DNA of 64,000 bases from assembly GCF_019336435.1 (NCBI RefSeq), contig NZ_JAHWXQ010000001.1:1426001-1490000 (forward strand), in the 5' to 3' direction. Source of the DNA: Pontibacter populi. GTDB lineage: Bacteria > Bacteroidota > Bacteroidia > Cytophagales > Hymenobacteraceae. Positions within the stretch are counted from its first letter, which is position 1. The number at the start of each line of letters is the position of its first letter. Both the position numbers and the translations under genes were made by a program. Of the stretch, positions 53,985 to 57,829 are shown one piece after another. The notes beneath the pieces are model-generated. The model saw only the letters and a program-made list of their open reading frames with translations, was not told where the DNA came from and did no database searches.

Positions 53985-54888
53985 ACACCGCGTCTTCGTC
54001 AGGCAATATTTCCACATCCTGCACCAGTACAAAGTTTTCGATTTCGCGTGCTCTTGGGGTGTTGGCCAGTCCGCCTTCGGCAGTTTCCTTGTATTTGCGT
54101 TCCATGCTTTCGCCTACTTCGCCGAGAGCTGCCACGCATTGGTCTACAGGTATAACAGGGTCTACGCCGGCAATGGCCAGCTGCGACGATGAATACGCAA
54201 TAGCAGCCGCGCTGGCGTTACGAACAATGCAAGGTACTTCTACCAGTCCGGCTACTGGGTCGCACACCAGGCCAAGCATACATTGTATGGTTATAGCAAC
54301 GGCATTAAAAACCTGATCTACGTTACCGCCGAGGCAGTAAACAATACCTCCGGCAGCCATAGCAGCAGCACTTCCGGTTTCGGCCTGGCAACCGCCTACG
54401 GCACCGGCCAGTGAAGCGTTCTGCTCAATAATAAGCGCAATGCCGGCTGCCACCAGCAGGGCTTCGTGTATCTTTCTGTCCTCCAGGCCATGCAGGTCCT
54501 GCAGGGTGGTAAAGGTGCCAGGCAAAATACCCGACGCACCCGCCGTAGGAGCAGCCACCACGCGGCCCATGCACGAGTTTACTTCTTTAGCGCCGAGAGC
54601 CCGCGACACCAGCATCTGAAACTCTGGCGACAATACGGTTACCGGCGAGTTGGCTACTTTTTTAGCGCTGTTATTCACCATGCCCGAGCGTGAGGTCATG
54701 TTTTCGGTGAGGCCGGTCTTAACGGCATCCTTCATCACTTCGTACGCTTTGGCAATATTTTCCCAGATAAATTCTTCGGTTCGGCCCTTCTGCTCAATTT
54801 CGTATTCGAGTACAGCCTGATATAGTGGTTCGCCGGTTTCAGCGCAATGCTTTTGCCAGCTCTTAAAATCGTTGAATAATAATGACAT
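53983..54888 (-). CDS. sdaAA: L-serine dehydratase, iron-sulfur type, alpha subunit
   Basis: Deaminates L-serine to pyruvate using a 4Fe-4S cluster. 301 residues, the length of stand-alone alpha subunits. SGMVNNSAKKV, SCMGRVVAAPTAGASGILPGT, GGCQAETGSAAAMAAGG and LVCDPVAGLVEVPCIVRNA provide the substrate and Cys cluster residues. The beta subunit (sdaAB) is not in the window. The C-terminus carries an acidic tail (LPDEDAV). Confidence 0.94.
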   Translation of the reverse strand: MSLLFNDFKSWQKHCAETGEPLYQAVLEYEIEQKGRTEEFIWENIAKAYEVMKDAVKTGLTENMTSRSGMVNNSAKKVANSPVTVLSPEFQMLVSRALGAKEVNSCMGRVVAAPTAGASGILPGTFTTLQDLHGLEDRKIHEALLVAAGIALIIEQNASLAGAVGGCQAETGSAAAMAAGGIVYCLGGNVDQVFNAVAITIQCMLGLVCDPVAGLVEVPCIVRNASAAAIAYSSSQLAIAGVDPVIPVDQCVAALGEVGESMERKYKETAEGGLANTPRAREIENFVLVQDVEILPDEDAV

Positions 54889-55090
54889 ACGTATTTCCTT
54901 TTATGTATCTGCCACCTTAACAGCAGGGCGTTAAAGATAATTTAAATTTCAGGAACGCCCTATAGTTTGCGCCCATACTATAACAACAGCGAGGGGCTGT
55001 TTTGTTCTGAGCAGCACTTGGTATTGTTTACGCAAACCAGCGGTTTGTTCCTGCGTTACTCATCAGGTACACCAGGCGCAACTATAAACT

Positions 55091-55375
55091 ATGAGCAGCA
55101 ACTATAAACATGTATCCATGAAGATCTTCGGAAAAGTACAGGGCGTGTTTTTCAGGGCCAGCACCCAGGAGAAAGCCGAAGAGTTAGGCCTGACCGGTTT
55201 TGTGCAGAACGAACCTGATGGTACCGTTTACTTAGAAGCCGAAGGCAATCCCGAAACTATAAAACAACTGGAAGCCTGGGCGCATAAAGGCCCAAGCCGT
55301 GCGAGAGTTGAGAAAGTGGAAGTGAAGGAGTTAGGTGAGTTGGAAGGTTTTGAGAAGTTTGAGCAGCGGAGGTGA
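55091..55375 (+). CDS. Acylphosphatase
   Basis: Hydrolyses acyl phosphates such as carbamoyl or acetyl phosphate. 94 residues, normal size. Catalytic Arg in GKVQGVFFRASTQEKAEELGLTGFVQN and the Asn at the end of that stretch are intact; PDGTVYLEAEGNPE completes the signature. Preceded by AACTATAAAC words. The AT-rich two-gene cassette follows. Confidence 0.95.
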   Translation: MSSNYKHVSMKIFGKVQGVFFRASTQEKAEELGLTGFVQNEPDGTVYLEAEGNPETIKQLEAWAHKGPSRARVEKVEVKELGELEGFEKFEQRR

Positions 55376-55457
55376 AAACATATAAAATATTCTATATTAG
55401 TTTTAAACGAATAATTTATATTTCTTCACGTATTGGACGTTAATATTTGAAGGCAAA

Positions 55458-55982
55458 ATGACAGAGCAAGATATTATGGAGGAGCTATCTAAAGGTTATC
55501 TTGAAATGATAGCTAATAGGAGTGGCTACTTCAATTCTTGTGGTAGAGATTATGGTACTGACCTTACAATTCGTAAGGCAAGAGTATGTCCTACAAGGAA
55601 AAGATATTTAACTCAGGGTAAGGCTATAGATATTCAAATCAAAGCTACCTTAGAGCATAATGTTAGACACCTTACTGATTCATCCAAACCGTTCATAAAG
55701 TTTGATTTAGAATCAAAAAACTACAATGATTTAGTTGAGAGGAGTAGAGAAAATGGAGCATTTATCCCTTTATATTTAGTTGTTTTTATTCTCCCACAGG
55801 AAAGAGAGACTTGGTTAAAGTTAACTTCAGAAGAACTTGTAATAAAGAAATGTGCCTATTGGTATCAAATTCAAAGTGATGCTGAACTAAGTAGTAATAC
55901 AAGCACTGTTACTATAGCTGTACCTAAAACTAATATCGTCTGTACTAACTTCTATGATACACTTTTTACTCAATTGAACTGA
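55458..55982 (+). CDS. DUF4365 protein, predicted PD-(D/E)XK-like nuclease
   Basis: 174 residues. GRDYGTDLTI (Asp35) and GKAIDIQIKAT (Gln60, Lys62) fit the D...(E/Q)xK active site of restriction-like folds, and E8/E16 lie in an N-terminal helix; DUF4365 is proposed to be such a nuclease. The gene is visibly more AT-rich than its neighbours and has no CTATAGTT word, so it was probably acquired. Its stop overlaps the next start (TGATG), pointing to translational coupling. Function of the pair is unknown; defence against phage or plasmids is a reasonable guess. Confidence 0.8.
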   Translation: MTEQDIMEELSKGYLEMIANRSGYFNSCGRDYGTDLTIRKARVCPTRKRYLTQGKAIDIQIKATLEHNVRHLTDSSKPFIKFDLESKNYNDLVERSRENGAFIPLYLVVFILPQERETWLKLTSEELVIKKCAYWYQIQSDAELSSNTSTVTIAVPKTNIVCTNFYDTLFTQLN

Positions 55983-57073
55983 TGGAGTATAAAAGCAAAT
56001 ATATTATTGATTTCTTTGAATCAAGAGGCTGGGAGCAGAATAATGAAGGTAACTTATTTTTATCCCTCACCCCTCCACACTACCTAGGCCTTCCTCAAGA
56101 CTATTTATTAGAAGTTCCTAAAGATGACCAGAAGCCAGGGTTCGCTAAATATATTGATAATATTCTTCCATTATTAAATGATATACACAATGATCATTTA
56201 AATGAGGATGATCTTAAAACCATCTTCTCTACACAGGATTCTATTGTAAACTTTAGGATTATAGATACCGATACTGAAGATGGAAGTATTCAATTTCAAC
56301 GTTTCATCGATTCTTTAGAATCAATAAAGAAAATATTCTCACAGGTAGTTACTTATGTAGCCTCTAATAAACTGATTTTTGGACAAGCGAAGCAAGAAGT
56401 TGGAGCATTCCTTAAAAGCTGTAGAGCTCTACAGACTCAAAAGGGTAGTTTTGTCACAAAGTTTGAAATACCTAACGTAGAATTATTTACAACAATCAAT
56501 AAAATTAATACAGGAGAAATTAATGTTAAACTTTTTGACACAATTGACTTCATTAAACATGAGATTTTTATAAGTAAAAATATACCAGAGATCACTGATA
56601 GTTATTTGGTTGATAATCTGCAGAATATAAACGTTGAATTATTCCAGTCTATAAGAGACTTTTACAAAAAATCACACATTAACAACGCAGAGTTTCAATT
56701 AAATTCTAACTACCAATATAGAGAGATATTAACTGAGAGAGTGCAACCTCGCATTAAGTATCTTGATCACTACATTAAGTCCTTAAAACAATACCTCTTA
56801 ACGAGACAACCATTAGAAGCTGTCGGCTATGTAAGAAAGTTGTCATCACTCTCTCCTCTCCATTCTAATAGAAATGAAGTCTTTATTGAAGCAGAAATTG
56901 CTAACAACAAAGAAACTATAAAAGTAACGCTGGATAGTGAAAATTATGCACAAGCTTTAGAAGCTCACAGAAATGAATGGCCAATTAAGGTCGTAGGTAT
57001 GGCCCAGCAAACTAAAAAGATGTATTTTATTTCAGATTTAGAATCTTTTGTAATTTACAGCTCGAACGAATAG
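55982..57073 (+). CDS. Unknown partner protein of the DUF4365 cassette
   Basis: 363 residues, no family recognised. No signal peptide or membrane segment. Residues about 1-50 look alpha/beta, about 60-270 mainly helical with repeated Asn/Ile/Phe-rich segments (LFTTINKINTGEINVKLF; NINVELFQSIRDFYKK), and about 275-360 strand-rich (EVFIEAEIANNKETIKVTL ... KKMYFISDLESFVIY), possibly a small barrel. AT-rich like the gene before it; a single AACTATA at 56914. Coupled to the DUF4365 gene by a TGATG overlap, so the two likely act together. Confidence 0.8.
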   Translation: MEYKSKYIIDFFESRGWEQNNEGNLFLSLTPPHYLGLPQDYLLEVPKDDQKPGFAKYIDNILPLLNDIHNDHLNEDDLKTIFSTQDSIVNFRIIDTDTEDGSIQFQRFIDSLESIKKIFSQVVTYVASNKLIFGQAKQEVGAFLKSCRALQTQKGSFVTKFEIPNVELFTTINKINTGEINVKLFDTIDFIKHEIFISKNIPEITDSYLVDNLQNINVELFQSIRDFYKKSHINNAEFQLNSNYQYREILTERVQPRIKYLDHYIKSLKQYLLTRQPLEAVGYVRKLSSLSPLHSNRNEVFIEAEIANNKETIKVTLDSENYAQALEAHRNEWPIKVVGMAQQTKKMYFISDLESFVIYSSNE

Positions 57074-57216
57074 TCCTCTTTTAAAGCTCCGACCCCTTCT
57101 CGAGCAAAGCCCAGAAAAAAATACCGCTTTGTACCTGCGCTTGTCGCCTGAAACACTGAGCTGCGGTAAAGTATAGTATTTGATTCCGGTCAAGGATTAG
57201 CACTTATAACCTGCTG

Positions 57217-57224
57217 TACCTTTG
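57217..57224 (+). promoter_or_regulatory. Putative -7 element for the DinB gene
   Basis: TACCTTTG matches TAnnTTTG, 26 bases before the ATG at 57251. Confidence 0.4.
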
Positions 57225-57250
57225 TAGTGTAAACTATAAAACCATAACGC

Positions 57251-57829
57251 ATGACTACTTTAGAGCAACTTTCGCAAACCAATAGCCAGCTGCAGCAAAC
57301 TATAGTAAATGAGTTTTCGGCACTGGATCTTGCTGCTCTGAACTATAAGCCTACCCCCGAAAGCTGGAGCATACTGGAGTGCCTGGAGCACCTTAACCGC
57401 TACAGCCAATACTATAACCCAGCCCTTGCCAGGGCTATTGCCGATAACTCCGATGGCAGCAATGTAACTAGCATTACCTATAGTTGGTTAGGTAAGAAGT
57501 CGCTGGACATAGTGCGCCCGCAGAATGGCAAAAAGCACAAAACAGTAAAGCACATGAATCCTGCTAACAGTACTTTAGGCCTGGCAACTATAGAAGCATT
57601 TCTAAAGCATCAGCAGGAACTACAAAGTCTGCTGCAAGCCGCTAAAAACTCCAACCTGAACAAAAAAGCCATCCCTGTCGAATTCTTTAAGCTACTTAAA
57701 ATGCGTATCGGCGAAACGCTGGAATTTATAGTTATGCACCAGGAACGCCACGTACAGCAGGCTTTAAGAGTGAAACAGCAGGCAGTCTATAGTGAAGGCA
57801 GCAGCCTGAGTTTGATTGCTGGTTGTTAA
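57251..57829 (+). CDS. DinB-family protein
   Basis: 192 residues, four-helix bundle of the DinB/YfiT superfamily, which includes metal-dependent thiol transferases. The three-His set is visible: ECLEHLNRYSQYY (first His) and IVMHQERHVQQAL (two His). N-terminal QLSQTNSQLQQTIVNEF is typical. Cytosolic. Substrate unknown. Rich in CTATAGTT words, in contrast to the cassette before it. Confidence 0.88.
   Translation: MTTLEQLSQTNSQLQQTIVNEFSALDLAALNYKPTPESWSILECLEHLNRYSQYYNPALARAIADNSDGSNVTSITYSWLGKKSLDIVRPQNGKKHKTVKHMNPANSTLGLATIEAFLKHQQELQSLLQAAKNSNLNKKAIPVEFFKLLKMRIGETLEFIVMHQERHVQQALRVKQQAVYSEGSSLSLIAGC

Follow-up and report, generated by a model that had tools for sequence, protein, structure and literature searches.

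The question raised by this locus is why a compact pair of AT-rich genes lies among housekeeping genes, and what the pair might do there. The initial annotation of the window, by which we mean the whole 64-kb stretch of DNA analyzed, described a nuclease-like DUF4365 gene and a partner of unrecognized kind, and it proposed that the two had been gained recently, perhaps as a defence or toxin system. Both open reading frames (A and B) were found where they had been placed, on the same strand and with the one-base overlap TGATG, in which the stop codon TGA of A occupies 55980-55982 and the start codon ATG of B begins at 55982 (Table 1). Their neighbors are as ordinary as had been claimed: Pfam identifies acylphosphatase, serine dehydratase, DinB_2, and thioredoxin/NHL genes. 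The host genome of 4.3 Mb carries a single copy of B and a single DUF4365 gene, and no RNA families were found in 54800-57400.

The AT-richness of the pair relative to its neighbors was borne out. The GC content is 33.3% in A, 32.1% in B, and 32.5% in the cassette as a whole, compared to 45.2% in the 64-kb window, where the lowest 1.6 kb outside the cassette has 39.5%. Only 2 of 624 windows were as low in GC as the cassette, and both lie on the cassette itself. GC3 is 0.25 for A and 0.29 for B, against 0.50-0.55 in four neighbor genes. A second argument, the scarcity of a window word, held in part. The word ACTATA/TATAGT is strongly over-represented across the window (1-64000), with 255 copies on both strands. 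The cassette has two copies where the window average predicts 6.4, and AACTATA occurs once instead of 5.0 times, but the related word CTATAG is present at nearly its expected number (4 against 4.8). Since CTATAG is not scarce, the argument for foreign origin rests on composition rather than on the word, which is weak evidence when taken alone.

Table 1. Positions of the cassette, its predicted parts, and its flanks in the 64-kb window.
Feature	Positions	Strand	Details
Left anchor of the variable site: acylphosphatase gene	55091..55375	+	Pfam 3e-25
Left junction and 82-bp AT-rich leader	55376..55457	+	congener alignments end at 55373-55376
Gene A (DUF4365/PDC-M02A), predicted PD-(D/E)xK nuclease, predicted SPARDA DREN fold	55458..55982	+	174 aa
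Predicted catalytic codons of A	55560..55643	+	D35 55560-55562; Q60 55635-55637; K62 55641-55643
Gene B (PDC-M02B), predicted sensor/adaptor	55982..57073	+	363 aa
B, predicted N-terminal domain (residues ~1-100)	55982..56281	+	invariant W17, P46; edges approximate
B, predicted central domain (residues ~101-273)	56282..56800	+	QTxxGSF: T152, G155, S156, F157; edges approximate
B, predicted C-terminal OB fold (residues 274-363)	56801..57070	+	Foldseek/VIA
Right junction: 3'-end remnant of a Crp-like regulator gene	57084..57178	+	26-residue Crp C-terminus match
Right anchor: DinB_2-like gene	57251..57829	+	Pfam 2.5e-11

The edges of the cassette could be placed by comparison with other genomes of the genus. 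The foreign DNA starts at the stop codon of the acylphosphatase gene (55373-55375), where the DNA alignments of congeners end. On the other side, alignments resume at 57100-57116 in several congeners, inside the remnant of a Crp-like regulator gene. This remnant still encodes ...LYLRLSPETLSCGKV-stop, and the gene is intact at the same place in most congeners. Elsewhere in the host genome no close Crp orthologue was found (best 34%). The position of the right edge inside the remnant indicates that most of the Crp-like gene was lost with the arrival of the cassette or afterwards. The DinB-like right anchor is found in 46 of the 50 genus genomes. A mobile element with its own ends was considered and rejected, as the window has no tRNA and the cassette no integrase, and no terminal or flanking repeats were found at the cassette beyond chance-like 12-17-mers. 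Because no repeat, tRNA, or integrase marks the ends, the likely route of entry is replacement by homologous recombination in the flanks.

The gap between the acylphosphatase and DinB genes could be read in 26 congeners besides the window, giving 27 sites. Twenty of these, the window included, contain cargo genes, which belong to nine unrelated families, are mostly AT-rich, and mostly follow the acylphosphatase stop codon directly; several are defence-like. The A-B pair occupies the site in this genome only. The sister genome G174, whose DinB is 95% identical to that of the window, has a DUF3644/PDC-S19 gene broken after 238 aa (L008:350-1443). The other cargo consists of an SRA-HNH protein (two genomes), a DEDDh exonuclease-BRCT protein (two genomes), a 332-aa protein that matches a type II REase model over its C-terminal half (eight genomes), a 258-aa type with no family (three genomes), a 422-aa protein weakly matching DzbB, a 319-aa protein with no family, and a SIR2/ThsA-like protein (one genome each). 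The remaining seven genomes have no such gene, or a remnant, and one of them has only about 110 bp between the anchors. Three of the cargo types lack a Pfam family, namely the 258-aa type (L050:2920, L053:1199, and L063:7876), the 319-aa protein (L060:1213), and the 332-aa protein (L039:6820 and seven more), and these are candidates for defence genes of a new type.

Two neighboring gaps served as controls. The gap between the DinB and thioredoxin genes is below 1 kb throughout. Of 22 gaps between the serine dehydratase and acylphosphatase genes, 13 measure near 200-275 bp and the other nine exceed 900 bp. The acylphosphatase-DinB gap is the most variable of those compared, yet not the sole variable one, and the contrast in size is therefore partial and the whole stretch somewhat fluid. 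The pair was gained at a site rich in defence-like genes, and the proposal of a recent gain agrees with the comparison: B is absent from the other congeners searched, and the 26 congener sites hold other cargo or none. Conservation of both genes at the same place in all relatives, with normal composition, was not what we found. In this genus, the site gathers small cargo genes into a compact natural catalogue; these are good candidates for defence, and several of them have no known family.

Outside the genus, the distribution of the pair is wide and patchy. B was found in 6 of 204 genomes of the family, the window genome and five of another genus, and the copies outside the genus have 22-27% identity. 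The nearest relatives are in a Flavobacterium-like genome (G371; 52% identity for A and 41% for B), and a viral contig from IMG/VR (L098), 40% identical to B, is also among them. Within its own family the identity of B is only 23-25%, and that the nearest relatives lie elsewhere fits horizontal gain. Flavobacterium, Saprospiraceae, Bacteroides-labelled, and Hymenobacter genomes contain the pair, as do further genomes of the phylum and plasmids of Pusillibacter (Bacillota), Gluconobacter and Tistrella (Pseudomonadota), and Entomospira (Spirochaetota), so that it recurs in four phyla and also in prophage contigs. In two IMG/VR contigs (L099 and L100), genes judged by eye to be phage-like flank the pair on both sides. 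A tblastn search with B at E 0.01 found no match in the phage collection and one among plasmids.

The two genes also travel together. A was found in 15 of the 395 genomes of a phylum sample, and B is the next gene after 11 of its 12 intact copies there; the remaining copy lies at a locus that has a retron-type reverse transcriptase. The main clades are common to the A and B trees. At L116, L133, and L125, stops or frame changes interrupt A, and B is still open. Two Flavobacterium-type loci (L066:7468-9065 and L101:8389-10003) carry strongly diverged pairs in apparently matching positions, behind an RND efflux pair and close to a GIY-YIG gene. A housekeeping pair was ruled out by the patchy distribution and the swapping of cargo at the site, and the partner did not turn out to belong to a known housekeeping family.

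The annotation of A as a nuclease-like DUF4365 protein stands (Pfam E 1.7e-14), and it can be made more specific. A matches the PADLOC model PDC-M02A (PDLC04290) at 8.3e-38 over residues 1-169. Comparison with the PDB by sequence profile gave only chance matches to quinolinate synthase; thus, a fold search was needed to link A to a known structure. With an AlphaFold2 model (pLDDT 85.6, 12 sequences), all 13 Foldseek matches with E at or below 0.001 were SPARDA chains, the best at 3.1e-6, with moderate TM-scores of about 0.5 over the query. VIA-align placed the model on the SPARDA DREN domain with Z 12.8 over 136 residues (3.5 A), compared to Z 10.1 for Hjc resolvases and 8.5 for I-Ssp6803I. 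D31, D35, Q60, and K62 are kept in 21 of 21 relatives and E8 in 20. The NbaSPARDA report names D41, Q60, and K62 as the catalytic residues of DREN, which is there also called DUF4365, and states that D41A abolishes defence (PMC12205087). Motif and fold suggest that D35, Q60, and K62 of A correspond to these in order and motif, and A is predicted to be a DREN-type PD-(D/E)xK nuclease. In titles and abstracts, the literature that names DUF4365 deals with Argonaute systems or mentions it in passing only.

The partner had been thought to match nothing, which proved incorrect, since B matches PADLOC PDC-M02B (PDLC04307) at 6.3e-22 over residues 11-359, as a diverged member (best model 76 bits). The profile and structure searches that had been suggested for it were productive in part: a profile search of the PDB gave nothing meaningful for B, and the structural comparisons, with an AF2 model of pLDDT 85.5 and pTM 0.68, found a C-terminal OB fold. 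This matches the OB folds of SSB, PriB, RPA, and tRNA synthetases with Z 6-9.6 (Foldseek/VIA), values that are common for small barrels and so indicate an OB fold only; the domain could bind protein rather than nucleic acid. Over the whole length, the best structural match is Q6NE06 of Leptospira phage LE1 (7.9e-20, TM 0.6, 18% identity), followed by a predicted phage DUF6575 protein (Foldseek 2.9e-9, TM 0.41). No fold match was seen for the central QTxxGSF domain in structural lists that were filled by the OB fold and so bear little on the first 273 residues.

Conservation provides a second view of B. Across 21 relatives, the (nearly) invariant residues are W17, P46, T152, G155, S156, F157, G282, and L287, together with an OB-fold set of L317, Y322, A325, A328, H329, and G339. 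A Nostoc plasmid encodes a mini-B of 175 aa beside a DUF4365 gene (L095:5480-6007), in which the N-terminal and OB domains are present and the central domain is missing. B is therefore modular, and its N-terminal and OB parts seem to be enough for some function with A.

By its matches to both models, the pair belongs to PDC-M02, a phage-defence candidate of PADLOC. Such candidates were found inside defence operons, a logic termed 'guilt-by-embedding', and the PDC families are reported as unvalidated (PMC12988326; PMC10855318). Our literature search found no paper that names PDC-M02 and no account of its mechanism. The surroundings of relatives, which the initial annotation had recommended inspecting for known defence genes, include type I, type IIG, and Hma-like operons. 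At L067, the pair is followed 35 bp downstream by hsdM and then by hsdS, an EcoR124_C-like gene, and hsdR of a type I system. At L070, a type IIG enzyme begins 6 bp downstream. At L105, a weakly DUF499-like gene and a PglZ-like gene precede the pair, and an HmaB/DUF1156-like methylase follows 2 bp after it. The pair also adjoins DUF262 genes on one plasmid. Together, the model matches, the embedding in defence operons, and the recurrence across unrelated phyla as well as plasmids and prophage contigs uphold the proposal of a candidate two-gene defence system. The family itself is already listed, and this pair is a further member; the present analysis contributes the predicted effector fold that A shares with SPARDA, a modular reading for B, and the swap site.

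Our preferred reading, to which we give a probability of about 0.55, is that the genome acquired the pair horizontally, as a member of PDC-M02, and that B detects nucleic acid from an invader and then activates A, a DREN-type nuclease. A would be inert alone. B would bind A, probably through its N-terminal domain, and would sense an invader-derived nucleic acid or nucleoprotein intermediate through the OB fold and the QTxxGSF domain. Ligand-bound B would then gather several A molecules, and oligomerized A would cut DNA or RNA indiscriminately, which would halt an infection, presumably by phage, probably with the loss of the cell. In the same NbaSPARDA report, isolated DREN is a monomer that shows no detectable activity until tetramerization activates it (PMC12205087). 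B would take the role for A that a guide-loaded short Argonaute with APAZ fills for DREN. Another activator would be needed here because Piwi (PF02171) is absent from the whole host genome; should A depend on a trigger like DREN, its constant partner B is the natural one.

An unlikely but serious alternative is direct immunity, in which A and B form a heteromeric endonuclease and the host is left unharmed. B would recognize a DNA feature, which might conceivably be a modification, a single-stranded end, or a replication intermediate, and A would cut that same DNA. The resemblance of A to Hjc resolvases and I-Ssp6803I speaks for such an enzyme, and A could cut specific DNA rather than act indiscriminately. 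Relatives lie inside type I and IIG restriction-modification operons, OB folds often bind single-stranded DNA, and in the work of Vassallo et al. (PMC9519451) direct immunity was seen for 7 of the 11 systems that have domains for binding or cleaving DNA. However, the cassette has no methyltransferase or other self-marking gene, and DREN, the closest structural relative of A, is a collateral nuclease. The same relative bears on a toxin-antitoxin pair, with A as nuclease toxin and B as antitoxin serving mainly the upkeep of plasmids and prophages. We consider this improbable since DREN alone is inactive in NbaSPARDA, and B, the longer protein and the less conserved one (41% identity to the nearest relative, compared to 52% for A), is unlike a small antitoxin. 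In its favor, the two genes overlap, several plasmids as well as prophage contigs carry them, and A is damaged beside an intact B at L116/L133 and L125, as if the enzyme were the costly part, but both the site and the surrounding operons are typical of defence genes.

Two further explanations place the pair outside defence or outside function. A nuclease and an SSB-like protein acting in DNA repair or recombination would agree with an OB fold like that of SSB, PriB, and RecO and a nuclease fold like that of Hjc. It is nevertheless very improbable given the patchy presence (6 of 204 family genomes and 15 of 395 in the phylum), the exchange with defence-like cargo at the same site, and the embedding in defence operons. 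Decay of the cassette into a non-functional remnant is suggested by the remnant Crp-like gene next to it and by the broken cargo of the sister genome, but we regard it as extremely improbable, as both frames are open and full length and all catalytic and family-invariant residues are present.

The link of A to the structurally solved DREN of SPARDA, with the same three predicted catalytic residues, makes PDC-M02, so far a defence candidate only by virtue of the genes around it, a testable two-part device, with a known effector and what would be a new kind of trigger. More tentatively, and with somewhat less than even odds, PDC-M02 could represent Argonaute-free immunity, in which an OB-fold sensor replaces the guide-loaded Argonaute and the DREN module works with at least two unrelated sensors and perhaps a third, the retron-type reverse transcriptase of locus L131. 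DREN would then be a shared effector that is plugged into different sensors, like the SIR2 and TIR domains.

Locus L131 itself (L131:7192-9409, G462:C1) has three genes in a row, encoding a DUF4365 protein (PDC-M02A 6e-29), a 122-aa protein with no family, and a retron reverse transcriptase of type III-A-like kind (5e-132), but no B. It had no Rfam RNA match, and it may be a retron whose effector is of the DREN type. The N-terminal domain of B was compared with the 122-aa protein, and kinship between them gained no support.

Among known systems, restriction-modification is set apart by the lack of a cognate methyltransferase among the open reading frames from 53.9 to 59.4 kb. DUF6575 is part of a defence system that was discovered by experiment in E. 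coli (PMC9519451, Vassallo et al. 2022), and the predicted phage DUF6575 protein resembles B in structure and, at about 370 aa, in length. However, comparison with one Bacteroidota DUF6575 protein showed no profile similarity (hhalign probability 0.4%) and so gave membership of B no support, and B has no Pfam match to the family. The uncharacterized LE1 phage protein Q6NE06 resembles B over its whole length. With SPARDA, in which a short prokaryotic Argonaute is paired with a DREN(DUF4365)-APAZ protein, the pair shares the predicted DREN fold of A and its D...QxK active site, and activation by a partner would be a further likeness. In contrast to SPARDA, the window genome has no Piwi protein, and A is DREN alone, with no room for an APAZ domain because residues 1-174 are all covered by the DREN match. 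B has a predicted OB fold but no Piwi match, and its best structural matches, filled by the OB fold, include no SPARDA, APAZ, or Argonaute chain. With neither an Argonaute gene in the genome nor an APAZ half fused to A, the pair is not a SPARDA. With PDC-M02, it has in common the near full-length matches of A and B to the models, the two-gene arrangement on one strand, and relatives in restriction-modification and Hma-like operons, and it differs in that the B of the window is a diverged member.
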